From an uncultured Burkholderiales bacterium (lineage in GTDB: Bacteria; Pseudomonadota; Gammaproteobacteria; Burkholderiales; Burkholderiaceae_C), in contig CAIJIT010000154.1 in NCBI GenBank assembly GCA_903820745.1, positions 1-49,899 on the forward strand: a stretch of 49,899 nucleotides of DNA, written 5' to 3'. A program made the position numbers and the translations under genes. The notes below the pieces were generated by a model. It searched no databases and had not been told where the DNA came from. It saw only the letters and a program-made list of their open reading frames with translations. Shown one piece after another: positions 6,675 through 32,578 of the stretch; the stretch's first letter is position 1; every line of letters begins with the position of its first letter.

Positions 6675-6692
6675 GTGTCAAGGCTGTGACGA
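6675..6692 (-). promoter_or_regulatory. Candidate Pho box upstream of the alkaline phosphatase pair
   Basis: Read on the minus strand the site is TCGTCAC-AGCC-TTGACAC, two 7-bp units on an 11-bp period. It matches the CTGTCAT/C consensus at 10 of 14 positions. It lies 59 bp before the start at 6615. AT-rich stretches (TCATAT) follow about 15 bp later and could serve as a -10. The match is moderate. Confidence 0.5.
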
Positions 6693-6762
6693 CCCGACCG
6701 CGCTGAAGCGGGACATTTGTCGCCGGGAATCAGTCAATGCAGCGGGCCGGTGGCCGCTTAGA

Positions 6763-7764
6763 TCAATCCCGTTTGCGGAATGCCAGCCAACCAGCCAGCA
6801 TTGTGAAGGTCGCGATGATTGCCACGATGACATAGAAGCCATGCGGGTTGTCGGCCAGCGGGATGCCGCCCACGTTCATGCCCAACAGGCCGGCCACGAT
6901 ATTGATCGGTAATGCCAGCACGGTCACGATCGTCAATGTAAACAGGCTGCGATTGGTCTGCTCGCCGATCTGGGCGGCGATTTCTTCTTGCAACAGCTTG
7001 ATTCGCTCCTGCAGTTCCGACAGATCGCGGATCACCAAGGTGAACTCTTCTGTGGCCTGCCTGAGGTCATCCAGGCCTGAGACCTGCACCCAGGGTGGGG
7101 GCAGGCGCAGCAAACGAAACAAGGCGCCTGGTTCTGGCGCCAGCAAGCGTTGCAAGCGCACCAGCACCCGGCGCAATTTGCCAAGGTCAGACCGCTTGTG
7201 GCTGATTCGTCCGGCCAGCAGGCCATCCTCGATGGCGTCGACACGCAGGGTGGCCTCGCGCACGATTCGCACCAATACATCGCCTTGGTCATGCAGCAGG
7301 TGGTTCAGGAATTCGACTGACGAGTTGAAGCAGCAGCCATCTTTGACCGCCTGGCGCAAACGGTCGATCGAGCGCAGCGGCCGGATTCTTGCGCTGATCG
7401 CCATGCGTGGCCCAACATTGACCCAGAGGCTTTCGATTTCTGAAGGATCGAAGGCGAACTCGAAGGCCACATCGTTGACCACCGCCACCAAGGTGTCATT
7501 GGCGTCTTCGATGCGGGTCGAACGGGAGCCTGCGTGCAGGGCCTCGAAGAATTCGGGCACAACCGGCAGGTTCTGCTTGATCCAGTCTTCGGCAGCCGCC
7601 GTTGCCAGGTTGAAGTGCAACCAGACAAAGCCATCGCCGGCCGCAGCGTCAGAACGCAGCCATGCCAAGGCAGCGTCCAGATCAACCGGCACGCCGGCGG
7701 CGCTGCCCTTGAACAGGTAACCGCAAATCAGGCCGTTCTTGTCTGAGCCGTATTGGGCAATCAT
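6763..7764 (-). CDS. zntB: ZntB-type CorA-family divalent cation transporter
   Basis: This 333-residue protein has the CorA layout: a long soluble N-terminal funnel domain, a helical stalk (LSELQERIKLLQEEIAAQ), and two C-terminal transmembrane helices. The signature GMN is present at the end of the first helix (GLLGMNVGGIPLADNPHG). The length, and the GMNVGGIP context rather than the YGMNF seen in magnesium CorA, favour ZntB, which moves Zn2+ across the inner membrane. It starts at the ATG closest to the conserved IAQYGSDKNGL region. It is separated from the phosphatase pair downstream by 147 bp and appears to be its own unit. Confidence 0.9.
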   Translation of the reverse strand: MIAQYGSDKNGLICGYLFKGSAAGVPVDLDAALAWLRSDAAAGDGFVWLHFNLATAAAEDWIKQNLPVVPEFFEALHAGSRSTRIEDANDTLVAVVNDVAFEFAFDPSEIESLWVNVGPRMAISARIRPLRSIDRLRQAVKDGCCFNSSVEFLNHLLHDQGDVLVRIVREATLRVDAIEDGLLAGRISHKRSDLGKLRRVLVRLQRLLAPEPGALFRLLRLPPPWVQVSGLDDLRQATEEFTLVIRDLSELQERIKLLQEEIAAQIGEQTNRSLFTLTIVTVLALPINIVAGLLGMNVGGIPLADNPHGFYVIVAIIATFTMLAGWLAFRKRD

Positions 7765-7971
7765 TGCTTTGGCCTGGGTTGTGTGGTGTGAGTGATTCCG
7801 GCTCTGTAGGGTAGCCCGGGTTGCCTGGTGTCTGCGGGCTGGTCATTGGACGACAGCAAGCATTTTTTGACGTCCGGGTAGCGAGTTTAGCCCTCGTGGT
7901 CGAGGGCCCGATAACCCGCTGGCGCAGCGGCCCTTGCGGCGCCGCCAGGAACTGGGTGCCGAGAATCCCTC

Positions 7972-7989
7972 ATGTCAGCGGCGTGACAT
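7972..7989. promoter_or_regulatory. Perfect inverted repeat ATGTCA-N6-TGACAT
   Basis: Six-base arms are separated by GCGGCG, with the dyad centre about 150 bp before the TonB receptor start. It looks like a dimer-binding operator. The regulator is unknown, and a 6-bp dyad can occur by chance. Confidence 0.3.
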
Positions 7990-8036
7990 CTTCACGAATT
8001 TTTGATGACGTTGTGCCAAAGCCCGGACGAGTCGAT

Positions 8037-8055
8037 CTGTGACGCTTTGTCACAG
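8037..8055. promoter_or_regulatory. Perfect inverted repeat CTGTGAC-N5-GTCACAG
   Basis: Seven-base arms flank GCTTT, 75-94 bp before the TonB receptor start. The half-site GTCAC is the same core as in the Pho units, but here the arms are inverted and not direct. It may bind a symmetric dimeric regulator acting together with the downstream Pho-like site. Confidence 0.45.
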
Positions 8056-8088
8056 TTTTGTTGCCTTGATTTGTGAAACTTTGCTGGT

Positions 8089-8106
8089 CAGTCATATCAC
8101 TGCAAA
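8089..8106 (+). promoter_or_regulatory. Candidate Pho box before the TonB receptor
   Basis: CAGTCAT-ATCA-CTGCAAA has one good unit (6/7) and one weak unit (4/7) on the 11-bp period. The site ends 24 bp before the start codon, the same distance as for the plcP-like gene. A TTCAAT at 8111 could be the -10. Confidence 0.4.
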
Positions 8107-8130
8107 TCACTTCAATTCAAAGGCCTAGCA

Positions 8131-10392
8131 ATGTCACGCCACTTCAAGTATTCCGTTCTTGCGACTGCAGTCGCAGCCTCTCTCGCAGGCCTTGTTTCTG
8201 TGCCTGCCTTTGCCCAATCCGCTGATGCCGAAACGACATCGCTCGAGCGGGTCTCGATCACCATCGGCCGCGGTCAACTGCGCTCGGTCCAAGGCGTCAA
8301 TGCCGCCGACTTCGAAGCCGCGACTCCGGGCACCAGCCCGCTCGTGACGGTCGCGCGTCTGCCTGGCGTCAACTTCCAATCGGCCGATCCGCTGGGTAAC
8401 TATGAATGGTCGACGCGCTTTACCGTCCGTGCCTTTTCGCAGAACCAGCTCGGTTTCACACTTGACGACGTGCCGCTTGGCGACATGTCCTATGGCAACT
8501 CGAACGGCCTGCATATCAGCCGTGCGATTTCTTCCGAAAATGTCGGTCGCGCAGCACTTTCGCAAGGCAGCGGCTCATTAGAGACCGCTTCGAGCAGCAA
8601 TCTGGGCGGGACCTTGCAGTTTTACTCTTCCGACCCCTTGAAGAAATTCGGCCTGCAAGCCGCGCAGACGATCGGCAGCAATTCAGATCGCCGCACATTT
8701 ATGCGCATTGACAGTGGGTCGACTGGCTTGGGCGAGTTCTTCCTCAGCTACACGAACCAGAACGCCGAAAAGTGGAAGGGCCAGGGCGAGCAGCGTTCCG
8801 AGCAGGTGAACTTCAAGTTCGTCAAGCAGTTCGGTGACAACCGCCTGTCAGCCTTCGTCAACACATCCAAGCGCCAGGAAATTGATTACCAGGACATGTC
8901 GCTGGAGATGATCAAGCGCCTGGGCAATCAGTGGGATAACACCTATCCGGACTTCGGCGCGGCGCTGAAATACGCCAACACCGTCTGTGGCAATGTGATC
9001 AACAAGGTACAAACGCCTTACAACGCGACTTGCGACGACGCCTATTACGCCGGCTCGGGTTTGCGCAATGACACCTTGTCAGGTGTGACCCTGGACGCCA
9101 AGCTGGCCGAGAATTTGCGCCTCAAGACGACGGTCTACCACCACAGCAATGAGGGCCGCGGTCTCTGGTACACGCCTTACACCGCCTCGCCTGATGGCAC
9201 CCCGATTTCACTGCGCACGACGGAATATGCGATTGCGCGCACTGGCGTTGTTGCCAATATGGAATATGAAATCGGCAGCCATGTGGTGAAGGCCGGCCTC
9301 TGGCACGAGGACAACAACTTTGACCAGGCCCGTCGTTTTTACGCGACCAGCCCGACCAATGTGCCAAGTCCCTATGTGTTCCCGAGCAACCCGTTCTTCA
9401 CCCAGTGGCAATACGCGTTCAACACCAAGACCGACCAGTTTTCCTTGGCTGACACGTACACGGTCTCCAAGGACCTGAGCGTTGGCTTCGGCTTCAAGTC
9501 ACTGCGCGCCACGATCAATGGCAAGCTGCTGGTGGGTGCCGACAAGCCGAACGACAGCATCACCGCCAGCAATGGTTTCTTGCCGCAAATCGGTGCCAAC
9601 TACCAGTTGTCCAAGACCGACGAGTTGTTCGCTGCGGCTTCGCGCAATATGCGTGCTTTCCAGGGCGCCTCGACTGGCGCAACGCCATTTGCCACCACGG
9701 CGGCCGGCTTTGCCGCGATCAAGAACACGCTCAAGCCTGAAACGGCTGACACGATCGAAGGCGGCTGGCGCACCCAGACAAGCCAGTACCAAGGCTCGCT
9801 GACAGCCTATCTTGTCAACTTCAAGAACCGCCAGCTTGGCACCCAGTCCGGCGCCGGCATCCAGGGCAATCCGACGATTTTGTCCAATGTGGGTGGCGTT
9901 CGCTCGACGGGTCTGGAAGCTGCGCTGTCGTTGCGACTGGCCAATGCGTTCACCTGGTACAACAGTCTGAGCCTGAGCAATTCGACCTACAGTGACAACG
10001 TCGTCAGCAACGGCGTGGCCGTGGCCACTTCGGGCAAGACGGTGACGGATGCGCCGGATCAAATGTTCAAGTCAAGCCTGGGTTATGACAACGGCACGCT
10101 GTTCGGTAATCTGGGCCTGGACTACATGGCCAAGCGTTATTACACCTACCTCAATGACGGATCGGTGCCTGAGCGCACCTTGTTCAATGTGAGCGGTGGT
10201 ATGCGTACCAAGGCAGTTGGCGGTTTGTCCGAGGCAACTGTGCAATTCGGCATTTCCAACCTGTTCGACAAGAAGTACATCTCGACGATTGGCTCGAATG
10301 GCTTCCAGAACAGCGACCCGACCGGCACTGCGCAGACCTTGCTGGTGGGCGCACCGCGTCAATTGTTCGTGACGGTCAGCGGCAAGCTGTAA
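8131..10392 (+). CDS. TonB-dependent outer-membrane receptor
   Basis: This 753-residue protein has a Sec signal peptide ending near VPAFAQ. A plug domain covers ~residues 40-160 (FTVRAFSQNQLGFTLDDVP, ISSENVGRAALSQGSGSLET) and a long beta-barrel has alternating aromatic strands to the C-terminus. It would import a ligand across the outer membrane using TonB energy. The ligand is not readable from sequence. The next genes encode a phosphatase and an ABC importer for a phosphorus compound, which suggests an organophosphate or phosphate-containing substrate rather than iron (inference from context). A strong terminator ends the gene, so it is its own transcript. Confidence 0.88.
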   Translation: MSRHFKYSVLATAVAASLAGLVSVPAFAQSADAETTSLERVSITIGRGQLRSVQGVNAADFEAATPGTSPLVTVARLPGVNFQSADPLGNYEWSTRFTVRAFSQNQLGFTLDDVPLGDMSYGNSNGLHISRAISSENVGRAALSQGSGSLETASSSNLGGTLQFYSSDPLKKFGLQAAQTIGSNSDRRTFMRIDSGSTGLGEFFLSYTNQNAEKWKGQGEQRSEQVNFKFVKQFGDNRLSAFVNTSKRQEIDYQDMSLEMIKRLGNQWDNTYPDFGAALKYANTVCGNVINKVQTPYNATCDDAYYAGSGLRNDTLSGVTLDAKLAENLRLKTTVYHHSNEGRGLWYTPYTASPDGTPISLRTTEYAIARTGVVANMEYEIGSHVVKAGLWHEDNNFDQARRFYATSPTNVPSPYVFPSNPFFTQWQYAFNTKTDQFSLADTYTVSKDLSVGFGFKSLRATINGKLLVGADKPNDSITASNGFLPQIGANYQLSKTDELFAAASRNMRAFQGASTGATPFATTAAGFAAIKNTLKPETADTIEGGWRTQTSQYQGSLTAYLVNFKNRQLGTQSGAGIQGNPTILSNVGGVRSTGLEAALSLRLANAFTWYNSLSLSNSTYSDNVVSNGVAVATSGKTVTDAPDQMFKSSLGYDNGTLFGNLGLDYMAKRYYTYLNDGSVPERTLFNVSGGMRTKAVGGLSEATVQFGISNLFDKKYISTIGSNGFQNSDPTGTAQTLLVGAPRQLFVTVSGKL

Positions 10393-10400
10393 TCGCGAAC

Positions 10401-10436
10401 GCCGGCACCGGGAAACTGGTGCCGGCTTGTTTTGTT
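10401..10436 (+). terminator. Rho-independent terminator of the TonB receptor gene
   Basis: A perfect 9-bp GC stem, GCCGGCACC / GGTGCCGGC, with an 8-nt loop is followed by TTGTTTTGTT. It begins 8 bp after the stop codon. The downstream phosphatase starts only 18 bp after the T-tract, so that operon must use read-through or a promoter inside or before this region. Confidence 0.9.
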
Positions 10437-10453
10437 CATTCTTGAAAATTTCC

Positions 10454-11602
10454 ATGCCCAATCTTTCGCAGCAAGGCAGCCTTCGCCGCAGCCTATTGCT
10501 GGCGGGTTCGATGACGCCTTTGCTGATCCATACGCCAGCGTCTGCCCTTGCGCAGTCGCGTCAGCCCGGGGTCAAGACTGAGCTCAATGCCAGTTCCCTG
10601 CGCATTGCCTTCGGTTCCTGTGCGCAACAGCGCAAGCCCCAGCCGATCTGGGACACGATCGCGGCCGCCCGGCCCGATCTGTTCTTGTTTCTTGGTGACA
10701 ACCTCTACGTCGACGCCCGCGACGAGGTGACATTTCGTCAACGCTATGCCGAATTTCAAAGCGTTCAGTCGCTGCAGGAATTTCGTGAAAAGACGCCGCA
10801 TCTGGCAATCTGGGATGACCATGATTTCGGGGATGACGATGTCGGCGGCGACTATGAGCTGAAAGCCTTGTCGCAGCAAATGTTCTGTGATGAATGGGCC
10901 GAACCGGTTGACTCGCCGCGGCGCACGCGCAGCGGCGTCTACGAAGCCTACCGGATCGATTCAGTCGGCCGCAGCGTGCAGATTCTGATGCTCGACCTGC
11001 GCTTCAACCGCACGCCCTTGCGCGCTGACCCGGCGCAGAAAAAAGGCTATGGCGCCATGGTCATGCAGGCCAAACTCAGCGGCAAGCCGATGACGGGTTG
11101 GTATCTGCCGAATCTGGACCCCCAGGCAACGCTGCTCGGCGAGGAGCAATGGGCCTGGCTGGCTGAGCGTCTGGCTGAACCGGCCGATCTGCGCATCATT
11201 GGCTCCAGCGTTCAATTTGCCGCAGACGGTACCGGCTGGGAAGGCTGGGCCAATTTTCCCTTGGAACGCGAACGACTGACCCGACTGATCAGCGGCCAAC
11301 GCGCCAACGGTGTCGTCTTCATCAGCGGCGATATGCATTACGGTGAGCTTTCTAGCTGGCCCGTTGAAGGCGGCTACCCGCTGTGGGACCTCACTTCCAG
11401 CGGCTTGACCGAAGTCTGGAATATTCCGACACCGAACCGCCAACGCCAATCGGTGGTCGTCGCCGAAATCAATTTCGGCCTGCTCGAGATCAATTGGGCC
11501 GATGCTGGCGGCAGCCTCACGATGTCGATCGTCAACAAGACCGGCAAGACAAAGCTGAGCAAGTTGCTGAACATCGATCAATTGCAGTTTACCAAGGTCT
11601 GA
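10454..11602 (+). CDS. PhoD-like metallophosphatase, exported
   Basis: This 382-residue protein of the PhoD/metallophosphoesterase type begins with a twin-arginine export signal (SLRRSLLLAG, cleavage near ALAQ). Metal-binding motifs follow the family order: RIAFGSC, FLFLGDNLYVDARD, AIWDDHDFGDDD, and ISGDMHYGELS near the end. It would hydrolyse phosphomono- or diesters in the periplasm. The ATG at 10454 is chosen because the earlier in-frame TTG lies within the preceding terminator's T-tract. The ABC solute-binding protein starts 4 bp after its stop. The operon therefore couples external hydrolysis with uptake. Confidence 0.88.
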   Translation: MPNLSQQGSLRRSLLLAGSMTPLLIHTPASALAQSRQPGVKTELNASSLRIAFGSCAQQRKPQPIWDTIAAARPDLFLFLGDNLYVDARDEVTFRQRYAEFQSVQSLQEFREKTPHLAIWDDHDFGDDDVGGDYELKALSQQMFCDEWAEPVDSPRRTRSGVYEAYRIDSVGRSVQILMLDLRFNRTPLRADPAQKKGYGAMVMQAKLSGKPMTGWYLPNLDPQATLLGEEQWAWLAERLAEPADLRIIGSSVQFAADGTGWEGWANFPLERERLTRLISGQRANGVVFISGDMHYGELSSWPVEGGYPLWDLTSSGLTEVWNIPTPNRQRQSVVVAEINFGLLEINWADAGGSLTMSIVNKTGKTKLSKLLNIDQLQFTKV

Positions 11603-11606
11603 ATCA

Positions 11607-12668
11607 ATGAAACGTTACCTCTTGTGCGGCCTGGCCGCATGCGCCGGCTTTGCCGCAATTGCACAGCCGATGAGCCTGAAAGCGCTGGAAACTGCTGCGC
11701 GCGCTGAAGGCAAGGTTGTCAGTGTCGGCATGCCCGATGGCTGGGCCAACTGGCGCGCCACCTGGGCTGATATGCAGCGAATCCATGGCATCAACCATGT
11801 CGACAGTGATATGAGCAGCGCTGAGGAAATTGCCAAGATGGAAGCCGAACGTAGCAATGCCAGCGTCGACATCGGCGATGTCGGTTTTGAGTTTGGCGCC
11901 ATTGCCAAAGCGCGTGGAGTCACGCAGGCCTACAAGCCATCCAACTGGGCGCAAATCCCCGCCTGGGCCAAAGACGCCGACGGTCATTGGGTGGTGGCCT
12001 ATACCGGCACGATCGCATTTGCAGTCAACAGCAAGCGCTTGCCGAACCCTCCGCGCAGCTGGAAAGCGCTGTTCGAAGGCCAGGCACAGGGCGCGTACCG
12101 GGTCATGATTGGCGAGGTTGGCCGTGCCGCGCAGGCTAATGCAGCGGTGCTGGCCGCAGCGATTGCGCTGGGCGGCAGCGAGACTCAGCTGAAGCCGGCC
12201 TTGAGTCAGTTTGCGCAAATTGCCAAGCAGCAGCGCTTGATCATGACCAACCCTTCGCCGGCCCTGATGGAACGCGGCGAGGCCGATGTGTTCGTGCTGT
12301 ATGACTTCAACGCACTGTCCTTCCGCGAGAAGATTCCGAACGGCGCCGACTACCAAATCCTGATTCCGTCAGACGGCTCGGTGACCAGCGGCTATACGAC
12401 GATCATCAACAAATTCGCGCCGCATCCGGCCGCTGCAATGCTGACGCGCGAATACATCTTCAGCGACGCCGGTCAGATCAATCTGGCTCGCGGCAATGCG
12501 CGACCGGTGCGTATCGATTCGATCAAACTTCCGGCTGATGTGGCGGCCAAGCTGATCGACAGCGCCCAGTACAAGAACACGCGGGCGGTCAACCCGACGC
12601 TGTGGGCCGATGAGGTCAAGAAGCTGCCGCGTGCTTGGCAAAAAGATGTCATCGGAGCCGCCTCGTGA
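11607..12668 (+). CDS. ABC importer periplasmic solute-binding protein (PotD/AfuA/PhnS-like)
   Basis: This 353-residue protein has a signal peptide (MKRYLLCGLAACAGFAAIAQ). The mature protein has the two-lobed binding-protein pattern of the spermidine/iron/2-aminoethylphosphonate group: EGKVVSVGMPDGWANW, IGDVGFEFGAIAKARGV, and the hinge-region VAYTGTIAFAVNSKRL. It delivers the substrate to the two permeases downstream. Paralogues bind very different ligands, so the substrate must be inferred from neighbours, namely two phosphatases and a cytosolic alkaline-phosphatase-superfamily enzyme. A phosphonate or small phosphodiester is the best guess. It overlaps the next gene by four bases. Confidence 0.85.
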   Translation: MKRYLLCGLAACAGFAAIAQPMSLKALETAARAEGKVVSVGMPDGWANWRATWADMQRIHGINHVDSDMSSAEEIAKMEAERSNASVDIGDVGFEFGAIAKARGVTQAYKPSNWAQIPAWAKDADGHWVVAYTGTIAFAVNSKRLPNPPRSWKALFEGQAQGAYRVMIGEVGRAAQANAAVLAAAIALGGSETQLKPALSQFAQIAKQQRLIMTNPSPALMERGEADVFVLYDFNALSFREKIPNGADYQILIPSDGSVTSGYTTIINKFAPHPAAAMLTREYIFSDAGQINLARGNARPVRIDSIKLPADVAAKLIDSAQYKNTRAVNPTLWADEVKKLPRAWQKDVIGAAS

Positions 12669-13456
12669 ACAAGCTGACTTCAGGCAAGAAGCTGGTGTTG
12701 ATTCTGGCTGACGGCTTGCGCGCTGAAATTGCCCGCAACTACATGGGCTATCTGCAGGCCATCAATGAAGCCGGGCGGGCGCAGTGGCGCAGCCTGAACT
12801 GCGAGTTGCCAAGCTTGTCACGCCCGCTGTACGCCACCCTGATCAATGGCCAGACACCACTCGATCACGGCATCGTCAGCAACGCACAGGCCGGTCAGCG
12901 CTGCGGCAGTACGGTATTCGACGATCTGGCCGCAGCCGGTGGAAGTTCGGCAGTCGCTGCCTATCACTGGTTTTTCGAACTGTTGTCGGGGCAGCGCTTC
13001 GAGCCCGCCCGCCATCGCCACGAAGCCTTGCCGGCAGCGGGCGTGCAGGCAGCCAGTTGGTACTTCGAGGACGAATACCCTGACTCACATCTGCTGGCTG
13101 ATGCCGAGCATTTGCGCCGCAGCGTCAACCCCGATCTGCTCTTCATCCATCCGATGGGCCCCGACCATGCCGGGCACCAGTTCGGCGGTGAATCCACGGC
13201 CTACAGCATGTGCGCACGTAAACTCGACATGATGCTGGCCTTGCTGCTGCCGACTTGGCATGCCGCCGGCTACGACGTGTTGCTGACCAGTGACCATGGC
13301 ATGCATGCCGACCGGATGCACGGCGGCCCGCTGGCCATCGAGCGCGAAGTGCCGTTGGTCTGGCTGCCATGCACCGGCAACGCGATGGATTGCGTCCTGC
13401 CCGACAGTCAACTGGGGCTGCGCAGCTTTGTCGTGCACCACCTGATAGCCCATTGA
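12665..13456 (+). CDS. Cytosolic alkaline-phosphatase-superfamily hydrolase (phosphodiesterase/NPP type)
   Basis: This 263-residue protein starts at the GTG that overlaps the previous stop (GTGA). No signal peptide is seen, so it should act in the cytoplasm. It has the metal-site pattern of nucleotide pyrophosphatase/phosphodiesterases: LILADGLRAE (Asp ~16), a threonine nucleophile in YATLINGQTP (Thr ~58), HPMGPDHAGHQFGG, and TSDHGMHADRMHGG. Phosphonoacetate hydrolase belongs to the same superfamily, so C-P bond cleavage is a second possibility. Its position inside an ABC-importer operon suggests it breaks down the imported compound. It is shorter than typical NPP enzymes (about 400 residues). 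Confidence 0.8.
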   Translation: MNKLTSGKKLVLILADGLRAEIARNYMGYLQAINEAGRAQWRSLNCELPSLSRPLYATLINGQTPLDHGIVSNAQAGQRCGSTVFDDLAAAGGSSAVAAYHWFFELLSGQRFEPARHRHEALPAAGVQAASWYFEDEYPDSHLLADAEHLRRSVNPDLLFIHPMGPDHAGHQFGGESTAYSMCARKLDMMLALLLPTWHAAGYDVLLTSDHGMHADRMHGGPLAIEREVPLVWLPCTGNAMDCVLPDSQLGLRSFVVHHLIAH

Positions 13457-14274
13457 TGCAGCCATCAAGGCGCGCCTGGCTGCTCGCCACGCCTTTGCTG
13501 GTGCTGGTGGCGTTGACCGTGTTGATGCCCTTCATCTGGCGCAATGGCGGCTTGCTCTGGCAATGCGCCAGCGGCCAGGACTGTGCCGCACAGGACCTGT
13601 TCAGCGACAGCTATTACCTGTTGGCCATGTGGAACACGGTCTGGCTGTCCGCTGCATCCAGCTTGCTCGCGCTGGGCGTCGGCCTGGGCGCGGCGATTGC
13701 TGTGGCACAGCGTCCGCAGACCGAAGGTCTGGTGTCGCTGCTGGCCGGCCTGGGCGCAAATTTTTCCGGCGTGCCGCTGGCCGTGGCGCTGACGCTGCTG
13801 CTCGGCGCGCAAGGGCTGTTGACTGCCGGTCTGGCCACGATGGGCTTGTCGTTGAACCTGAATCAGAGCGCGGGGTTGCTGCTGGCCTATGTCTGCTTTC
13901 AATTGCCCTTGGCGACGCTGCTGTTGCTGGCGCCGGTGCGGCTGCTTGATGGCGGTTTGCTCGACGCCGCAGCGACGCTGGGTGCCACGCCGGCTTTGTT
14001 CTGGCGCAGGGTCGGCTTGCCAATGCTGCTGCCGAGCTTGGTCGAGGTCGGCAGCCTGTTGTTTGCCAATGCCGCAGCGGCTTATGCCACGCCATTTGCG
14101 CTGTCGGGCACGGCGGCCAATGTGCTGGCGGTGCGCATCGCCAGCCTGGTCAGCGGCGACATTTTTTCACAGCCTGAGCTGTCGGCTTTGCTGGCCTTGC
14201 TGATGTTCGTGATGCTGGTGCTGGTGATCGGTGGTGGGCGCATGCTGGCCGCGCGGCTGAGGCTTGCTTTGTGA
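13456..14274 (+). CDS. ABC importer permease 1
   Basis: This 272-residue, strongly hydrophobic protein has about six transmembrane helices. It contains the BPD permease coupling loop (LLDAAATLGATPALFWRRVGLP) that contacts the ATPase. The start ATG overlaps the previous stop (TGATG). Together with the next gene it forms a heterodimeric channel of the type used for polyamines, iron and phosphonates (PotBC/PhnUV-like). It lies within an operon of overlapping genes. Confidence 0.88.
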   Translation: MQPSRRAWLLATPLLVLVALTVLMPFIWRNGGLLWQCASGQDCAAQDLFSDSYYLLAMWNTVWLSAASSLLALGVGLGAAIAVAQRPQTEGLVSLLAGLGANFSGVPLAVALTLLLGAQGLLTAGLATMGLSLNLNQSAGLLLAYVCFQLPLATLLLLAPVRLLDGGLLDAAATLGATPALFWRRVGLPMLLPSLVEVGSLLFANAAAAYATPFALSGTAANVLAVRIASLVSGDIFSQPELSALLALLMFVMLVLVIGGGRMLAARLRLAL

Positions 14275-16048: not shown

Positions 16049-16067
16049 CGAGGCGGCTTCATGCCCT

Positions 16068-23468: not shown

Positions 23469-23480
23469 TGGAGACCTGAT

Positions 23481-24525: not shown

Positions 24526-24543
24526 CCGTCACGCGGTTTTCAT
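24526..24543 (+). promoter_or_regulatory. Candidate Pho box before lplT
   Basis: CCGTCAC-GCGG-TTTTCAT has two units on the 11-bp period (11/14). It is nearly identical in form to the box at 27152. It lies 11 bp before the ATG at 24555 and 41 bp before the alternative ATG at 24585. If this box is used, the later start is likelier. Confidence 0.5.
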
Positions 24544-24554
24544 CTTTGCCTGTC

Positions 24555-25844: not shown

Positions 25845-27086
25845 TCAGACTGCGGGCAGGGATCCTGTCGTCACAAAAGATCGATTCGGCAATGCCGCAC
25901 GCTGGATCACCTGATCGAGCACGCCTTCAAAGCGAGCGGTAACGCTGGACCAGTCCAGCGCAGACGCTGTCAAGCAAGCGGCAGTCCCCATCTGCCGCCG
26001 TCCTGCAGCATCGGCAGCCATGGCCACGGCAGCGCTGACGAAGGCGGCGCTATCGCCCATCGCCACCAGCCTGCCGTTCTCACCTGAGCGGATCAACTGG
26101 GCAGCAGCTGCGTAATCGAAGGCCAACAAGGCCAGACCACTGGCCATCGCTTCGGTCGTGACGTTCCCGAAGGTTTCGGTCAGGCTGGGGAAGAGGAAAA
26201 GATCGGCCGAGGCATAGTGGGCGCCCAACTCGTCGCCACTGCGCTGGCCGGCAAATATCACCGTCGGGTACCTGGCCTGCATTGCGGCCTGCTCGGGGCC
26301 CGAGCCGACCATGACCAGTTTTGCGCGTGGCTGCGTTTTCGAAATCGCGTCAAAGGCGGCCATCAGCACCGCCAGATTTTTCTCGGGTGCGATTCTTCCC
26401 ACGTGAATGATGCACAAGTCGTCAGCCGCCAGGCCCCATTGGTCACGCAAGACCTGGCTGCGCTGCAGCGGCGTGAATTGCTGGACATCGACGCCGCGCG
26501 ACACCACGTTGAGCTGTTTGAAGCCGCTGGCCTCAAGCTCACGTTGCAAGGCGGCAGTCGGCACCATCGTGCTGTGCGTGCGGTTATGGAACTTGCGCAG
26601 GTAAGCCATGATTGGCTTGTAGAGCCAGCCGATGCCGTAATGACGGCTGTAGGCATGAAAGTTGGTGCGAAAGTCGGAACTGACAGGCAGTTTCAAATGG
26701 ATTGCCGCCTGCAGCGCCGACCAGCCGAGTGCGCCTTCGGTTGCGATATGCACGATGTCCGGGCGACGCAATGACCAGAGCTGGACCAAGGCACGTTTGG
26801 ACGGCACACCCATGCGAAGGTTAGGGTAGCGCGGAATCGGCAAGCCACGCATCAGCACTTCATGAAAGCGCACGGTCTGGCCTGCAGCATCGCTTGCCGC
26901 CTGTCTGGGTCGGATCAATTGCACGTCGTGGTTGCGTCGATGCAGGCCCTCGACGATCCGCGCCACCGTCATTGCCACCCCGTTGACTTCGGGCGGATAA
27001 GTCTCGGTGACAAAGGCGATCCGCAAGGAGCGCTGCGCGGCCACAAAGTTATTGACAACGATGTCATCTGGCAGGCTTGTATTCAT
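25845..27086 (-). CDS. GT4 glycosyltransferase, probable diacylglycerol glycosyltransferase
   Basis: This 413-residue GT-B enzyme has an N-terminal acceptor half with RIAFVTETYPPEVNGVAMTV and FRTNFHAYSRHYGIGW. Its C-terminal nucleotide-sugar half has HVGRIAPEKNLAVLMAAF, MVGSGPEQAAMQ and SLTETFGNVTTEAMASG. It resembles the SqdX/Agt/mannosyltransferase branch of family GT4. Such enzymes glycosylate diacylglycerol to form phosphorus-free glycolipids when PlcP has removed phosphate headgroups. The ATG at 27086 is chosen over upstream starts because an excellent Pho box lies 22 bp before it. The sugar donor cannot be read from sequence. Confidence 0.85.
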   Translation of the reverse strand: MNTSLPDDIVVNNFVAAQRSLRIAFVTETYPPEVNGVAMTVARIVEGLHRRNHDVQLIRPRQAASDAAGQTVRFHEVLMRGLPIPRYPNLRMGVPSKRALVQLWSLRRPDIVHIATEGALGWSALQAAIHLKLPVSSDFRTNFHAYSRHYGIGWLYKPIMAYLRKFHNRTHSTMVPTAALQRELEASGFKQLNVVSRGVDVQQFTPLQRSQVLRDQWGLAADDLCIIHVGRIAPEKNLAVLMAAFDAISKTQPRAKLVMVGSGPEQAAMQARYPTVIFAGQRSGDELGAHYASADLFLFPSLTETFGNVTTEAMASGLALLAFDYAAAAQLIRSGENGRLVAMGDSAAFVSAAVAMAADAAGRRQMGTAACLTASALDWSSVTARFEGVLDQVIQRAALPNRSFVTTGSLPAV

Positions 27087-27108: not shown

Positions 27109-27126
27109 ATAACAGTTCGATGACAG
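27109..27126 (-). promoter_or_regulatory. Strong Pho box before the glycosyltransferase
   Basis: Minus strand CTGTCAT-CGAA-CTGTTAT matches the E. coli Pho box units at 13 of 14 positions. A CAGGAT beginning 11 bp later could be the -10. The ATG follows the box by 22 bp. Confidence 0.8.
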
Positions 27127-27151: not shown

Positions 27152-27169
27152 CCGTCACGCAATTTTCAC
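27152..27169 (+). promoter_or_regulatory. Candidate Pho box (first of two) before the Mpo1-like gene
   Basis: CCGTCAC-GCAA-TTTTCAC has two units on the 11-bp period (11/14). It is a near twin of the box before lplT. Confidence 0.55.
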
Positions 27170-27175
27170 GCAAGC

Positions 27176-27193
27176 CAGTCACCATCACGTCAC
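27176..27193 (+). promoter_or_regulatory. Candidate Pho box (second of two) before the Mpo1-like gene
   Basis: CAGTCAC-CATC-ACGTCAC has two GTCAC cores exactly 11 bp apart (11/14). It lies 24 bp beyond the first box and 50 bp before the GTG start. The divergent glycosyltransferase has its own box on the other strand. Confidence 0.6.
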
Positions 27194-27243: not shown

Positions 27244-27864
27244 GTGAAAAATCTCCTGCAAACCTTGGCTATCCAGCGTTGGGACGACCACCGCTACTAT
27301 CACCACAGCCGCATCAACCAGAGCCTGCATTTGCTCAGTGCAATTGCTTTTTTGGTGTCCTACGGCCTTTTGTTCGTCGACCCGGCGCAGGCCGCTTTGC
27401 TGGCCTGGTGCGTCTCGATGACGAGCCGCCAGGCCGGGCATTTCTTCTTCGAGCCGCGCGGCTATGACCATGTCAACCAGGCCACCGACGAGCACAAGGA
27501 AGACATCAAGATCGGCTACAACATCCAGCGCAAGATCGTGCTGCTCGCCATCTGGGTGTTGATCCCGTTGCTGCTGTGGCTGCAACCGTCGGTGTTCGGA
27601 CTGATCAAGCCGGCGACTGACTTGCATGGGCTGATCCATGACGTCGGCATCGCCTGGCTGTCACTGGGAGTCGGCGGCCTGCTGTTTCGTGTGACTCAGC
27701 TGTGGATCCAGCAGGATTTGATGACGGGGGCGGCTTGGATGTTCAAAATCCTGACCGACCCCTTCCACGACATCATGCTGTATTACAAGTCGCCGCTGTA
27801 TCTGCTGCGCGGTGAACTGATCGACCCGATGACGCATGTCGCCACGCACCCGTCACAGGTCTGA
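27244..27864 (+). CDS. Membrane protein resembling Mpo1/DUF962
   Basis: This 206-residue protein starts at a GTG (MKNLLQTLAIQRWDDHRYYH). It has three clear hydrophobic segments (~30-58, 98-122, 134-155). Conserved-looking histidines stand at membrane edges: HHSRINQSLH (His20, 21, 29), GHFFFEPRGYDH (His66, 76), His133 and His175. The spacing HxxxNxxxH...GHxxxE recalls the Mpo1/DUF962 family, in which yeast Mpo1 is an iron-dependent dioxygenase of 2-hydroxy fatty acids. The match is by pattern only. Two Pho boxes precede it and lipid genes surround it, so a lipid-modifying role is likely. It ends 7 bp from the convergent aminotransferase. Confidence 0.55.
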   Translation: MKNLLQTLAIQRWDDHRYYHHSRINQSLHLLSAIAFLVSYGLLFVDPAQAALLAWCVSMTSRQAGHFFFEPRGYDHVNQATDEHKEDIKIGYNIQRKIVLLAIWVLIPLLLWLQPSVFGLIKPATDLHGLIHDVGIAWLSLGVGGLLFRVTQLWIQQDLMTGAAWMFKILTDPFHDIMLYYKSPLYLLRGELIDPMTHVATHPSQV

Positions 27865-27871: not shown

Positions 27872-29527
27872 TCAGGCCGGGAACTTCTGGCGCAGCATCT
27901 CGAGCAGGATGCTGCGCTTGATGGCCTTGTTGCTCAGAGCGGCATCGCTTGTCCACCAGCCCTCGGCCTGCATGACTTGGGCGGCCTGAACAAAGCGCTC
28001 CAGCACCGCGTTGAAGTCGGCATCACTGTAGTTCAGGCTGAAGATCAATCGGCCGGTGCCGATCCAGCTCAGCGCCAGACCCTGTTCGCGCAGATAGAAC
28101 TGCAGCATCCAGTTGTAGCGCGAAGGGGTGGTGTAAAAAACGCTCCAGATCGATTGCATATTGGCCACTTGAATCGGCAAGCCGGCGGCTTGCATCGTCT
28201 GGTTGAAGCGCGCGGCACGGGCGTTCCAGCGCTCATCGACGCCTTCATAGATTGCCTTGACTTCAGCGCTTTCGAGACGATCAAGAAAGGCCTTCATCGC
28301 CCCCATCACATAGGGATGCGCATTGAATGTGCCGCGGGCAAAGCAGATGTCGGCAGGGCTTTCGTCGCGAAAACGTTTCATCAACTCGCGCCGGCCGCAG
28401 ACCACACCGACGGGCAACCCGCCACCCAGGGTCTTGCCGTAAGTGACCATGTCAGCTCGGACGCCGAAATACTCCTGTGCGCCGCCAGCGGCCAGCCTGA
28501 AACCGAGAAACACCTCATCAAAAATCAACACGATGCCGCGTTCAGTGCAGACCGCGCGCAGCTTTTTCAACCAGGCGGTGTAAGCGACGCGGTCAAAAGC
28601 GGCCCTGCGGCTGCTGTCGAGCAAGGCCGTGTCGCCCGGCGCACCTGCATTCGGATGCATCGCTTGCAGCGGGTTGATCAGCACGCAGGCAATGTCCTTG
28701 CGGGTGCGCAGCAAATGCAGGCTGCGATCGTCCATGTCCTTCAAGGTATGGGTTTCACGCGGTGGCAAGGGGTTGCCGATGCCGGGCTGCACGTCTTCCC
28801 ACCAGCCGTGATAAGCGCCGCAAAAGCGCACCAGATGGCTGCGCCGGGTGTGATAGCGCGCCAGCCGCACTGCCTGCATCACCGCTTCGGTGCCCGACAT
28901 ATGGAACGACACCTCATCAAGCCCCGAAATCGCCTGCAAGCGTTCGACGTTCTCGACCACACAGGGATGATAGGCACCGAGGACCGGGCCGAGTTGGTGG
29001 GTCAGGGCAATGCCTTCGTCGACGCATTCGCGGTAGAAGTCGTAACCGAACACATTGACGCCGTAGGAGCCGGTCAGGTCGTAGAAGACATTGCCATCCA
29101 GATCCTCGAAGGTGACGCCCGACGAGGCTTGCAGGAAGGCGCCGACTTTCAGGTGCTCGCGCAGGTAAGGGCTGTACTGGAAGGGCACGCGGTAGCTGCC
29201 GGTGAACTGCAGATCGGAGATGGCCACCCTTGCGCGTGCCGTCATCGCGATGCTCTTGGCGAAGCGTTCGGCAAACAGCGCAGTCAGGCGCTCGAAGCCG
29301 GCACGTCGCTGCGCCACGGCCTCGGCCGGCGCGCCATCCGAGTTGAAGAATTTCGCCTCGTCGTAGGCATAGCCGGGAATCAGTCGCGCCAGCCGTTTGG
29401 CCATGCGCGAATGTCCGGCCAGCGAGCGGTGCTTGGCGCGCGACAGATCAAGCCGCTGTTTGGCTCGAGGCAGGATCAAGGCCAGGGCGGCGATCGCCAC
29501 GGCAGTAAGTGCAAATGTCTGTTCCAT
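27872..29527 (-). CDS. Membrane-anchored class III PLP aminotransferase (glutamate-1-semialdehyde aminomutase-like)
   Basis: This 551-residue protein has an N-terminal transmembrane helix (FALTAVAIAALALILPRA, residues ~5-22) and about 120 extra residues before the class III fold. The PLP core shows MSGTEAVMQAVRLARYHT, GAYHGWWEDVQP, IFDEVFLGFRLA and the Schiff-base lysine in VTYGKTLGGGLPVG (~364). Aminotransferases and GSA-aminomutases in this class act on soluble substrates and do not normally carry a membrane anchor, so a lipid-linked substrate is suggested. A Pho box precedes it, and phosphatidylserine decarboxylase is divergent with OlsB nearby. The substrate is unknown. It is not a typical hemL, which lacks the extension and anchor. 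Confidence 0.85.
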   Translation of the reverse strand: MEQTFALTAVAIAALALILPRAKQRLDLSRAKHRSLAGHSRMAKRLARLIPGYAYDEAKFFNSDGAPAEAVAQRRAGFERLTALFAERFAKSIAMTARARVAISDLQFTGSYRVPFQYSPYLREHLKVGAFLQASSGVTFEDLDGNVFYDLTGSYGVNVFGYDFYRECVDEGIALTHQLGPVLGAYHPCVVENVERLQAISGLDEVSFHMSGTEAVMQAVRLARYHTRRSHLVRFCGAYHGWWEDVQPGIGNPLPPRETHTLKDMDDRSLHLLRTRKDIACVLINPLQAMHPNAGAPGDTALLDSSRRAAFDRVAYTAWLKKLRAVCTERGIVLIFDEVFLGFRLAAGGAQEYFGVRADMVTYGKTLGGGLPVGVVCGRRELMKRFRDESPADICFARGTFNAHPYVMGAMKAFLDRLESAEVKAIYEGVDERWNARAARFNQTMQAAGLPIQVANMQSIWSVFYTTPSRYNWMLQFYLREQGLALSWIGTGRLIFSLNYSDADFNAVLERFVQAAQVMQAEGWWTSDAALSNKAIKRSILLEMLRQKFPA

Positions 29528-29580
29528 GAGTGGGCCTATCAGGCTGTTTTTTCCCAGATCTCAATATTTAACAGGGCTGC

Positions 29581-29598
29581 TTGACAGCTTCGTGAAAA
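29581..29598 (-). promoter_or_regulatory. Candidate Pho box before the aminotransferase
   Basis: Minus strand TTTTCAC-GAAG-CTGTCAA has two units on the 11-bp period (11/14). A TTAAAT nine bases downstream is a fair -10, and the ATG lies 53 bp away. The box overlaps the first codons of the divergent psd gene. Confidence 0.6.
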
Positions 29599-30455
29599 TG
29601 CAAATATTTCGTCGATTTCTTCAGCAAGAGGATTTGAACTTCCTGCTCACCAACCGCATCCCGCGAGCGGCGTTGACGCGCTTCGTCGGTTGGTTCAGCC
29701 AGATCCGCCATCCGCTGCTGTGCCGCATCTCGATTGCCGCCTGGCAGTTGTTCACCGATCTTGATTTGTCAGACGCACGCAAGCAAAAGTTCGATTCGCT
29801 GCACGATTGCTTCACCCGCGAATTGAAACCCGGCGCGCGCCTGGTCGACCCGGATCCGGGCCTGCTGACCAGTCCCAGCGATGCCATCGTCGGAGCCTGC
29901 GGGCGGGTCGAAGGTCGGCAGGTTTTCCAGGCCAAAGGCTTTCCGTATTCAATCCAGGATCTATTCGGAGCGACGCAAGATACCAGTGCCTTTCAGGACG
30001 GCGTGTTCGTGACTTTGCGCCTGACCTCGGCGATGTACCACCGCTTCCATGCACCGCATGACTGTGTGGTCGAGCATGTGACCCATATCAGCGGGGACTG
30101 CTGGAACGTCAACCCGATCGCCTTGGCAAGGGTCGAGCGCTTGTTTTGCCGCAATGAACGCGCGGTGCTGCGCACGCGGCTGGACAGCGGTCAGCAGATT
30201 GCGCTGGTGCCGGTCGCAGCCATTCTGGTAGCCAGCTTGCGCCTGCATTTCCTTGACCTGTTGCTGCACCGGCGTTACCGCGGTGCCAATGAAATTCCCT
30301 GCCAGGCCAAGTGCACCAAGGGCGAAGAGATGGGCTGGTTCCAGCATGGTTCGACCATCCTGGTGTTTGCGCCGAAAGGGTTTGAGCTGTGTGCCGGTAT
30401 CAGCGAAGGCACCCGCATCAAGATGGGGCAGGCTTTGCTGGCCTTGCCCCGCTGA
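29598..30455 (+). CDS. psd: Phosphatidylserine (archaetidylserine) decarboxylase
   Basis: This 285-residue pro-enzyme self-cleaves at its HGST motif (Ser ~252) to make the pyruvoyl cofactor that decarboxylates phosphatidylserine to phosphatidylethanolamine. The catalytic Asp (TSPSD, ~95) and His (YHRFHAPHD, ~151) are in place, as is the N-terminal LTRFVGWFSQIRHPLL membrane-contact region. The ATG at 29598 is used; a GTG two codons earlier is possible. The gene is divergent from the aminotransferase and convergent with olsB. It could be the only psd of the organism or a second copy devoted to a different aminolipid; this cannot be decided from the window. Confidence 0.9.
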   Translation: MQIFRRFLQQEDLNFLLTNRIPRAALTRFVGWFSQIRHPLLCRISIAAWQLFTDLDLSDARKQKFDSLHDCFTRELKPGARLVDPDPGLLTSPSDAIVGACGRVEGRQVFQAKGFPYSIQDLFGATQDTSAFQDGVFVTLRLTSAMYHRFHAPHDCVVEHVTHISGDCWNVNPIALARVERLFCRNERAVLRTRLDSGQQIALVPVAAILVASLRLHFLDLLLHRRYRGANEIPCQAKCTKGEEMGWFQHGSTILVFAPKGFELCAGISEGTRIKMGQALLALPR

Positions 30456-30459
30456 ACGC

Positions 30460-31305
30460 TCAGGCGCTGAATTGGCGGCGGTAGCGCGCCGGCAAGTCGG
30501 CGATCCGCATGATCATTGGCAGGTCTGCGGTGTTGAAGTCAGGATCCCAGGCCGGCGCGCCGAGCACGCGGGCGCCGCAGCGCAGATAGCCGCGGATCAG
30601 CGGCGGCGGCTCGACGTCGAGGTCATGGCGCAACTCGTTCACCGGCAAGGGCAGGCGCGGGCGTACTTGCCACTCGGCGCTGGCCAGATGCGTCTGCTCG
30701 AGCTTTTTCCACAAGCTGGCCGCGTAATGCCCGCCGTCGCGCATGCTGACGCTGGCGCAGCCGATCATCGTGTCGAGGCGGTTGCGCACCATGAACTCGG
30801 CCAAGGCCGCCCAGAGCGTGAGGATGGCGCCGCCCGAACGGTAGTCCGGGTGCACGCAGGACCGGCCCAACTCGACCATGCTGGCGCGCAGTCCGAGCAG
30901 GTTGCCGAGGTCAAACTCGGTCTCGCTGTAAAGCCCGCCGGCGCGAGCGGCAGCCTCTGGCGTCAGCACCCGATAAGTGCCGATGACCTTGCCGAGCCGT
31001 CCATCGGCTTTCACCTTGCGCACCAGCAGATGCTCGCAGTAGTCATCGAAGACATCGATGTCATGGCCTTTCGGTGAGCCCGGAGGGACGCTCAAGCATG
31101 CACCCATCTCTTCGGCAAACACCAGATAGCGCAGTTTTTGGGCCGCACGAACTTCGTCGATAGTGCTGGCCCAACTGACGTCAAGGCGAGGCCTTGCTTC
31201 GGAGTCAACCTCAAAGCCTGATCGTCGTGAAGGCGCTTTGCCGGCCTGGGTCGGCCGCAGATCAGCGAAGGGCAGCGTGGGTATTGGCAAGTCGCGCATG
31301 GCCAT
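30460..31305 (-). CDS. olsB: OlsB-type N-acyltransferase (ornithine lipid synthesis)
   Basis: This 281-residue GNAT-fold protein is of the hemolysin-like acyltransferase family. Key segments are EVRAAQKLRYLVFAEEMGAC, DVFDDYCEHLLVRK, VIGTYRVLTPEAAARAG, FDLGNLLGLRASMVELGRSC, and VHPDYRSGGAILTLWAAL. OlsB links a 3-hydroxy fatty acid to ornithine, giving lyso-ornithine lipid; OlsA then adds a second acyl chain and is not in this window. Ornithine lipids replace phospholipids during phosphate limitation. Four consecutive Pho half-sites precede the gene. An alternative start is the ATG two codons in (MRDLPIP). Confidence 0.87.
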   Translation of the reverse strand: MAMRDLPIPTLPFADLRPTQAGKAPSRRSGFEVDSEARPRLDVSWASTIDEVRAAQKLRYLVFAEEMGACLSVPPGSPKGHDIDVFDDYCEHLLVRKVKADGRLGKVIGTYRVLTPEAAARAGGLYSETEFDLGNLLGLRASMVELGRSCVHPDYRSGGAILTLWAALAEFMVRNRLDTMIGCASVSMRDGGHYAASLWKKLEQTHLASAEWQVRPRLPLPVNELRHDLDVEPPPLIRGYLRCGARVLGAPAWDPDFNTADLPMIMRIADLPARYRRQFSA

Positions 31306-31344
31306 CCAGGTCGTAGTTGAGTACCGTCATGCTCGGTGCTGATG

Positions 31345-31384
31345 ATGACGCTGCCGTGACGCTAGAGTGACGAAACCATGACAT
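31345..31384 (-). promoter_or_regulatory. Double Pho box (four half-sites) before olsB
   Basis: On the minus strand ATGTCAT, TCGTCAC, GCGTCAC and GCGTCAT follow each other with exact 4-bp spacers, so GTCA recurs four times on an 11-bp period. The array ends 39 bp before the ATG. This is the clearest multi-unit regulatory site in the window. Confidence 0.85.
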
Positions 31385-31568
31385 TGCAGGAGATTCGCTG
31401 CGTTCGCGCTGTGGTGGTCGAGTCATCCTGATCAAGCCACCATCAGTCCGATGTAAATAAATGACTCAGGGCTGCAGAATTTGTCACAGGCTTGAAATGC
31501 GCTGCGCTCAACATTCGCTGTGGCTCGCGCGATCGGGGCCCTTCATGCAAACCCTTCAGGAGCCTTCG

Positions 31569-31823
31569 ATGACGACCGACCATTACCAGGAAGTTCACTA
31601 CACCGCCGCCACCCTGCACCGCGAGGCCGCACATCATTTCGAGGAGGCTGCCAAACATCACATCGAAGCTGCCAGCGCCGACGACGGCGATGATGTGACG
31701 ATGACTTCGGTCCATGCCTACCTGGCCTACGGTCACCAATTGCAAGCGGTTCATTGCGCCGAACTGGCCGCTCAAGCCGATGGCTCGATGGACGAAGAAT
31801 TGCCTGAGCCGATCGAGGGCTGA
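31569..31823 (+). CDS. Small His-rich helical protein (84 residues)
   Basis: The start at 31569 has an AGGAG site six bases upstream; earlier in-frame ATGs lack one. The product is rich in His, Ala and Glu, with a helical pattern (ATLHREAAHHFEEAAKHHIE, YGHQLQAVHCAELAAQAD). Similar small proteins are widespread in Proteobacteria but have no assigned role that I know. Metal binding by the His pairs is possible. A weak Pho-like site, TTGTCAC-AGGC-TTGAAAT at 31481, lies upstream and is not strong enough to call. Confidence 0.7.
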   Translation: MTTDHYQEVHYTAATLHREAAHHFEEAAKHHIEAASADDGDDVTMTSVHAYLAYGHQLQAVHCAELAAQADGSMDEELPEPIEG

Positions 31824-31890
31824 TTCAGCCAATGACCAGCTGGGCGCCGGGTCTGCCGGCTTTTACCGAGTTTGCTTGTCTAGCCTCTTG

Positions 31891-32538
31891 TCAGTCCGGG
31901 AGCAGGTTGGCCGCCAGATGCAGTCCGCTGCCGAGCATCACCAGCAGATGCCAGGCCAGATGCGCGAAACGCAGCTTCGAGCTGAGTAGAAAGATCAATG
32001 CGCCCAGGGTGTAAGCGGCACCGCCAGCCAGCAGCAGGTTCAGCGCTGCGGTGGAAATCTGCGCGATCCAGGGCGTTGCCGAAAGCAGCACCAGCCAGCC
32101 GATGACGACATAAAGACCGGTGGACAACAGCGGCTGCTTGACCCAGCCCATGCAGGTGATCAGCACTCCGAGGCAAGCCAGCGCCCAGACCAAGCCCAGC
32201 ATGATCAAGGCCTGCGAACCCTGCAGCGCTGGGGCTGCGAAAGCCGAGTAGCTGCCGGCAATGAACAGGTAAATGGCGGCACGATCTAGGCGCTCGAAGA
32301 GATCCTTGGCACTGCCCTCAGGCAACCCGTGAAACAAGGCCGACGAGGCGAACATCAACATCATCGTCAAGGCGAATGCGCTCAGCGCCGCTTGCTGCCA
32401 AAGATCAGCGCCAGGCTTGAGTTGCAGCAAGGCCGGCAAGGCTGCCAAGGCCACCAGGAAGCCTGCGCCGTGGCTGATGCTGTTTGCGATTTCCTCCGTG
32501 GCAGTTTGCTGACGCGGGGGCGAAACTGGAATTTGCAT
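31891..32538 (-). CDS. Hemolysin-III/PAQR-family membrane protein
   Basis: This 215-residue protein has seven predicted transmembrane helices and the family motif set: NSISHGAGFLVAL, SSALFHGLPEG followed by ERLDRAAIYLFIAGSYS, and the C-terminal HLAWHLLVMLGSGLHLAAN. These Ser, His and Asp residues form a metal site like that of PAQR/adiponectin-receptor ceramidases and the alkaline ceramidase superfamily. Bacterial members (YqfA/TrhA) affect membrane fluidity. A Pho-box-like repeat sits 22 bp before the ATG, so this copy may act in membrane remodelling during phosphate starvation (inference). Confidence 0.88.
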   Translation of the reverse strand: MQIPVSPPRQQTATEEIANSISHGAGFLVALAALPALLQLKPGADLWQQAALSAFALTMMLMFASSALFHGLPEGSAKDLFERLDRAAIYLFIAGSYSAFAAPALQGSQALIMLGLVWALACLGVLITCMGWVKQPLLSTGLYVVIGWLVLLSATPWIAQISTAALNLLLAGGAAYTLGALIFLLSSKLRFAHLAWHLLVMLGSGLHLAANLLPD

Positions 32539-32560
32539 TGCGTCATCTTCGGCTGCTTAT

Positions 32561-32578
32561 TTGACGCTGGCGTGACAT
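32561..32578 (-). promoter_or_regulatory. Pho box before the hemolysin-III/PAQR gene
   Basis: Minus strand ATGTCAC-GCCA-GCGTCAA has two GTCA cores 11 bp apart (10/14). GAAGAT starts 11 bp after the box as a possible -10, and the ATG is 22 bp downstream, as at the glycosyltransferase. Confidence 0.6.

Follow-up and report, generated by a model that had tools for sequence, protein, structure and literature searches.

A predicted PhoB-controlled island for phosphorus scavenging and membrane-lipid remodelling around a conserved gene core in a Paucibacter-like betaproteobacterium

Lipid replacement under phosphate stress has been described in alpha- and gammaproteobacteria, and the PhoB regulon, lipid remodelling by PlcP and Agt, and ornithine lipids are all established. 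The E. coli-type Pho consensus consists of two TGTCAY-type units at 11-bp spacing (PMC3465305), P. aeruginosa carries PlcP-Agt genes with Pho boxes and also shows ornithine lipid under phosphate stress (PMC8528852), and PlcP-Agt lipid renovation takes place in Methylosinus (PMC9239053). Here we analysed a contig of 49,899 nt from an uncultured Burkholderiales bacterium (CAIJIT010000154.1, hereafter the window), which belongs to a metagenome-assembled genome (MAG) of 5.12 Mb in 357 contigs with 99.17% completeness. Within the window we focused on the 26-kb stretch at positions 6675-32578, hereafter the island. We consider it highly probable that this stretch, under the control of PhoB, serves a Paucibacter-like betaproteobacterium in phosphorus scavenging and membrane-lipid remodelling, and that it is built around a conserved core and includes an operator between AT3, which encodes a class III aminotransferase, and psd, which encodes a phosphatidylserine decarboxylase.

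The island shares features with each of the described systems. As in the PhoB regulon of E. coli and other proteobacteria, TGTCAY-type pairs at 11-bp spacing precede phosphatase and transport genes; a difference is that here a single 26-kb island brings together many targets, one of its boxes covering the start codon of a phospholipid gene. The likeness to PlcP-Agt lipid renovation consists in a putative PlcP-like phosphoesterase and a GT4-family glycosyltransferase of putative Agt-like role, both with Pho boxes; here, however, the GT4 gene lies apart from plcP and is fixed in a core together with an Mpo1-like gene (mpo1), AT3 and psd. The words 'aminotransferase' and 'Burkholder' do not occur in PMC9239053. 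A third likeness is to the PhnSTUV-type 2-aminoethylphosphonate importer, as the solute-binding protein and the ATPase of the island match Phn models best and the permeases match several transporter models including Phn; all these matches are below the curated cut-offs, and unlike in PhnSTUV a phosphodiesterase gene lies within the operon. Neither a GT4-mpo1-AT3-psd core nor a Pho box on a psd start was found in the open-licence literature, among the matches listed and judged by titles and the starts of abstracts.

An initial annotation of the window had noticed direct repeats of a CTGTCAT/C-like unit on an 11-bp period in front of many genes of the island and had proposed a scan with a PhoB matrix against background and shuffled DNA. 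We scored such pairs in two ways. A hand-made score (cut-off ≥18) was built from the CTGTCAT/C motif itself, and because of this origin a second PhoB matrix was trained on the pstS promoters of the 30 best-scoring relatives, with the genome of the window excluded. The training stretch ran from 300 to 100 bp upstream of the point where the match to the PstS model begins, and the resulting matrix comprises 76 sites with the consensus ATGTCATATTACTGTCAT and 16.3 bits. Matrix scores ≥12 were counted as sites and scores around 11 as borderline, while comparative counts between genomes use ≥11. As background served 37 stretches of the same genome (in the matrix scan 60,382 bp intergenic and 660,239 bp coding DNA), and the rest of the window was scored apart from the island.

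The 11-bp-spaced TGTCAY pairs are enriched in the intergenic DNA of the island by both measures. By the hand-made score, the intergenic DNA of the island (2,860 bp) has 9 sites and that of the background (62,897 bp) has 10, of which 4 are located at pstS; the island's coding DNA (23,240 bp) has a single site, at 8834 within tonB, and the intergenic DNA elsewhere in the window (2,358 bp) has none. With the trained matrix the numbers were 11 sites in 2,861 bp and 4 sites in 60,382 bp, respectively. Coding DNA contained 12 matrix sites in the background and none in the 23,240 bp of the island, and elsewhere in the window there was 1 in the coding DNA (21,441 bp) and none between the genes (2,357 bp). 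Counted by segments, 7 of 16 in the island carry a site, against 4 of 386 in the background. In 1000 dinucleotide shuffles of the island segments we obtained on average 0.22 and at most 3 sites, against the 11 observed. One could object that the repeat unit has few bases and is frequent as a single copy, so that the boxes might be products of chance or base composition; given the shuffles and the segment counts we see practically no room for this explanation, and a chance origin was rejected because the hand-made score, the trained matrix and the shuffles all show the enrichment. The repeats noted in the initial annotation, the outcome of its proposed scan and its reading of a dense phosphate-starvation island are supported by the trained matrix, the same-genome background, the shuffles and the comparative data below, and it is from these that we infer regulation by phosphate.

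The promoter of the genome's own pstS gene, which had no part in training, scores 22.5 and 23.1 (L025, 14434 and 14504). A strict pattern with ≤1 mismatch has 32 matches genome-wide and 10 for the reversed control; the island accounts for 3 of the matches and pstS for another 3. Among five other high-scoring places in the genome, four taken from these matches and one from the matrix scan, a box just upstream of a called gene was seen in two only, a perfect box between a TonB receptor and a metallophosphoesterase and a box directly before a 442-aa gene. The perfect box (18.8), located on L241 (3379-3757), is accompanied by two further boxes (13.7 and 13.1), and the phosphoesterase there is calcineurin-like; this is probably another Pho unit elsewhere in the genome.

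Regarding the regulator, a profile search found no PhoB match over the cut-off in the MAG, which speaks against the proposed control. The best candidates of the genome (C284:24730 and C318:69426, with 204.6 and 199.9 bits where the cut-off is 296.2) each adjoin an open reading frame (ORF) that was read by eye as a histidine kinase. We attribute the missing match to the end of contig C295 within the pst operon, as this contig stops inside an ORF read as pstB; phoB is located about 4.5 kb after pstS in G003 and G014 (compared by coordinates). A true absence of PhoB was rejected because the protein is over the cut-off in 15 of 15 relatives searched. This count also argues against the idea that the boxes are bound by a different OmpR-family regulator with a similar repeat, for which the MAG, with 12 Trans_reg_C matches over the cut-off and no PhoB match, might appear to provide candidates. 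As the matrix was moreover trained on pstS promoters and most of the boxed genes are phosphorus or lipid genes, we regard such a regulator as very improbable and keep PhoB as the predicted one.

The operator between AT3 and psd has a geometry which, like psd itself and the conserved core, was not mentioned in the initial annotation of this stretch. AT3 (27872-29527, minus strand; PF00202) and psd (29598-30455, plus strand; PF02666 with E 2e-54, TIGR00163 PS_decarb over the cut-off) are divergent, and psd is the sole PF02666 match found in the genome. The Pho box at 29581-29598 (minus strand, score 12.6) is directed toward AT3 and overlaps the psd start, which is GTG 29592 or ATG 29598, while the gene caller picked TTG 29634. 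We compared this geometry in named loci, the best 80 of 579 encoding an AT3 relative; AT3 served to select these loci, and contigs that end early limit the counts. The titles of the 579 loci are mostly betaproteobacterial, with a few MAG titles naming other groups. Of the 80 loci, 64 could be analysed and 16 were dropped; in 51 of the 64, a candidate psd start is overlapped by the best box directed at AT3, and 50 of these overlaps have the identical offset. Scored at fixed geometry from whichever candidate start is best, 52 of 70 psd loci attain 8 and 40 attain 11, compared with 36 and 20 of 939 other genes treated alike. When only called starts are used, 24 of 74 psd genes reach 8 and 18 reach 11, against 11 and 5 of the 939. 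These smaller fractions count against our reading, as does the fact that the 40 of 70 relies on picking the best candidate start.

In the 54 distinct sequences of this region the conserved columns comprise TGACA at -10 to -6 of the psd start and ATGA(A/C) at the start, as well as T/A at -23/-22 and T at -25; read on the AT3 strand, the latter give TAnA at 10 bp past the box. To TGACA and ATGA, but not to TAnA, a further reservation applies, as the method itself partly selects for these columns. The box occupies the Shine-Dalgarno position of psd, and TAnA resembles a -10 element at a promoter-like spacing to the box for AT3. We therefore predict from sequence that the box activates AT3 and probably occludes psd. 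Whether psd is repressed at all appears evenly balanced to us, as the box may serve AT3 alone and the overlap may be a by-product of a short intergenic region: the divergent gap has a median of only 90 bp including 30 bp of padding, one half-site is in part made up by the start codon itself (ATGA read as TCAT), and the loci are related by descent. On the other side, TGACA is conserved at the Shine-Dalgarno place with variable bases in between, and a candidate start stands at identical offset in 50 of 64 loci.

The operator belongs to a core in which lplT, mpo1 and psd are read forward and GT4 and AT3 in reverse, in the order lplT, GT4, mpo1, AT3, psd. The lysophospholipid transporter LplT (24585-25841, plus strand; NF008397 with 486.1 bits, over the cut-off) is preceded by borderline boxes at 24526-24567 (plus strand, 10.8 and 11.2). 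The GT4 glycosyltransferase (25845-27086, minus strand) matches PF13692, PF00534 and PF13439; lipid glycosyltransferase models rank first and second among its NCBIfam matches, both far under the cut-off, and an Agt-like role may be assumed. Its box (27109-27126, minus strand, 14.3) ends 22 bp before the called start and leaves little room for a -10 element. The divergent Mpo1-like membrane protein (27244-27864, plus strand) has boxes at 27152-27193 (plus strand, 11.7 and 13.7) and matches PF06127 weakly, with 17.1 bits below the cut-off of 24; all 18 of 18 orthologues match the same family weakly at E ≤0.1, with a best E of 3.6e-5.

A strong AT3 match was found in 26 relatives (two of them partial), of which 20 were fetched and compared. 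AT3 of the near-identical MAG G014 is 99% identical to that of the window, and the Paucibacter loci L142 and L143 are 82% matches. GT4, mpo1, AT3 and psd occur together in 20 of 20 relatives, with two extra ORFs intervening in G024, and 18 of 20 have a box ≥11 at GT4 or mpo1. Among the 80 named loci AT3 was called in 75, psd in 73, GT4 in 68, mpo1 in 67, lplT in 38, plcP in 24 and olsB in 6. A box ≥11 is present in 43 of 54 regions between GT4 and mpo1 and in 31 of 51 between AT3 and psd, compared with 48 of 299 other upstream regions, in counts that exclude convergent, very short and >500-bp regions. In other loci phoA, plcP, olsB, the 84-aa gene described below or TRAP genes adjoin the same core in differing orders, which suggests a repeated gathering of genes around it. 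The psd that goes with AT3 is of the QEDLNF subtype; this subtype was found in none of the 14 readable psd loci (of 20) from genomes lacking AT3, which have other subtypes instead.

Regarding the enzyme encoded by AT3, the best solved relative by profile is the AMT domain of MycA of mycosubtilin synthase (6kfm, 220.9 bits), while the best glutamate-1-semialdehyde aminomutase reaches 159.4 bits. The single-sequence match to 6kfm has an E of 1.1e-48, and an AlphaFold model of AT3 (mean pLDDT 72.7) gave 6kfm as the first fold match (E 2.7e-27, TM 0.79 by target). Both proteins share the class III Aminotran_3 fold, but in contrast to the MycA domain AT3 is a stand-alone protein of 551 aa outside a polyketide synthase/nonribosomal peptide synthetase (PKS/NRPS) context, has a predicted N-terminal helix of about 29 residues and is 28% identical in the fold alignment. 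The MycA AMT domain aminates an ACP-bound beta-ketothioester (PMC3870968). Since this domain is the closest solved relative, it is a fair guess by analogy that AT3 may aminate an acyl chain, in beta position or otherwise, for a phosphorus-free lipid.

Class III aminotransferases have many small substrates. AT3 could accordingly use dihydroxyacetone phosphate, a semialdehyde or some other small ketone or aldehyde and provide a head group rather than an acyl chain, and glutamate-1-semialdehyde enzymes are indeed its next solved matches and its best NCBIfam matches. We consider this a real but lesser possibility, given that the MycA domain ranks first by sequence and by fold and that the N-terminal helix suggests a location at the membrane.

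Outside the core, the remaining boxed units can be followed along the island. The phoA pair consists of a 163-aa protein as first gene (6124-6615, minus strand; an ORF with no Pfam match and a homologue beside phoA in L141 and L153) and a PhoA-type alkaline phosphatase (4118-6127, minus strand; PF00245, E 6.7e-72), with a box at 6675-6692 (minus strand, 12.1) centred 69 bp upstream of 6615. A near-palindromic box at 7972-7989 (minus strand, 15.2) lies between the divergent genes corA and tonB and scores higher toward corA; we assign it tentatively to the TonB-dependent receptor (8131-10392, plus strand; PF00593 and PF07715). The genes from this receptor to an ABC ATPase (8131-16048) are located on one strand with gaps ≤61 bp, and the box may for this reason drive a long uptake operon. 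It includes a PhoD-like phosphatase (10454-11602, plus strand; PF09423), a PhnS-like ABC solute-binding protein (11607-12668, plus strand; PF13343, PhnS models matched below the cut-off), a type I phosphodiesterase/pyrophosphatase (12665-13456, plus strand; PF01663 with E 8.2e-18, covering 222 of 342 profile positions) and two ABC permeases in open frames (13495-14274 and 14310-15053, plus strand). Both permeases have weak permease matches; PF00528 matches the second, and the first has no Pfam match. The PhnT-like ATPase (15032-16048, plus strand) has TIGR03265 PhnT2 as best NCBIfam match (304.5 bits, below the cut-off of 457.7). A borderline box (12635-12652, plus strand, 11.6) precedes the phosphodiesterase inside the 3' end of the solute-binding-protein gene. 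These genes had been called phn relics, whereas we found open frames with no break in the gene calls; as some family matches are weak or partial, single genes may nevertheless be decaying.

Further downstream, a box at 16056-16073 (plus strand, 12.6, centre 53 bp upstream) precedes the alkaline phosphatase PhoD (16118-17857, plus strand; PF09423 with E 4.1e-97, together with PF16655), and a box at 17881-17898 (plus strand, 15.6 and 16.6 in G014, centre 33 bp upstream) precedes a metallophosphoesterase (17923-18789, plus strand; PF00149 and PF12850, LpxH-like below the cut-off), which from its context we take to be a putative PlcP. Next to the core, an OlsB-like ornithine N-acyltransferase (30460-31305, minus strand; PF13444, NF052555 and NF052554 with 163.8 and 160.7 bits, below the equivalog cut-offs of 320 and 350) has four tandem units at 31345-31384 (minus strand, 13.5, 13.1 and 19.9). 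The gene of an 84-aa acidic protein with no Pfam match (31569-31823, plus strand), which the initial annotation did not list, has a box at 31481-31498 (plus strand, 13.3). Homologues occur in 4 of the 80 named loci, one of which is the near-identical L140; near the core of Polynucleobacter (L186 and L193) and of the MAG L192, they have upstream boxes of 18.9-20.8.

At a matrix score ≥12 we thus count nine transcription units (phoA pair, TonB, phoD, plcP, GT4, Mpo1-like, AT3, olsB and the 84-aa gene). Nine units had been called clear before; six of these reach 12, those of lplT and the phosphodiesterase of the phn set are borderline, and that of the PAQR gene does not hold, so that the proposed minimum of nine is attained only with TonB, phoD and the 84-aa gene. 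The repeats before TonB and phoD had been described as weaker, but the TonB box is strong and the phoD gene at 16118 passes the threshold, while the first phoD-like gene has no supported box.

Several observations run counter to the proposed PhoB-controlled island. For the first phoD-like gene (10454) the best upstream score is -1.4, and a box was rejected; the same applies to the PAQR gene (TrhA by NCBIfam), where the best matrix score is 9.1 despite a hand-made score of 18.2 at 32572. The TRAP operon (20644-24419) has no Pho box supported by the matrix. Between the genomes, a box ≥11 at AT3 is present in only 6 of 20 relatives, most genomes of the window's genus falling below, and G046 and G028 lack a box ≥11 between GT4 and mpo1. 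The surrounding plcP, TRAP, olsB, 84-aa and PAQR genes are shared only by G014 of the 20 relatives. The small number of boxes just upstream of genes among the five other high-scoring genomic places belongs here as well.

The TRAP operon just mentioned is located inside the island on the minus strand and comprises DctP, a fused DctQM and a TAtT component; TRAP genes are also found near the AT3 core in L190, L191 and L203. The island further contains a Lys/Pro/Ala-rich repetitive ORF without Pfam match (19478-20248, minus strand). In the rest of the window a 2748-aa protein (38503-46749, minus strand) combines GH94 catalytic, supersandwich and glucoamylase-like domains and in this resembles cyclic beta-glucan synthases.

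Upon exhaustion of phosphate, phospho-PhoB would bind the 11-bp-spaced TGTCAY pairs and switch on alkaline phosphatase, PhoD, the phosphodiesterase and the ABC importer behind the TonB receptor. It would likewise switch on PlcP-like phospholipid breakdown, the GT4 glycosyltransferase, LplT, OlsB and AT3. Binding to the operator between AT3 and psd would activate AT3, and the same binding event would probably block phosphatidylethanolamine synthesis, a block that we propose because the operator covers the psd start codon. What the sequences themselves show are the sites, their enrichment, the synteny and the geometry, while binding, induction, repression of psd and the enzyme activities are predictions drawn from them. 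A more far-reaching version, which we consider unlikely though worth stating, is that the core constitutes a PhoB-driven switch from phosphatidylethanolamine to an undescribed phosphorus-free aminolipid, widespread in Betaproteobacteria: one operator would start AT3 for a MycA-like beta-ketoacyl amination and shut off the sole decarboxylase forming phosphatidylethanolamine, with GT4, the Mpo1-like protein and OlsB completing the replacement membrane.

For the Betaproteobacteria, with loci including Limnohabitans, Polynucleobacter, Curvibacter and Variovorax, the analysis adds a conserved candidate module with two uncharacterised enzymes. If a single PhoB site indeed turns on a new lipid route while turning off phosphatidylethanolamine synthesis, membrane chemistry would be under a direct genetic switch.

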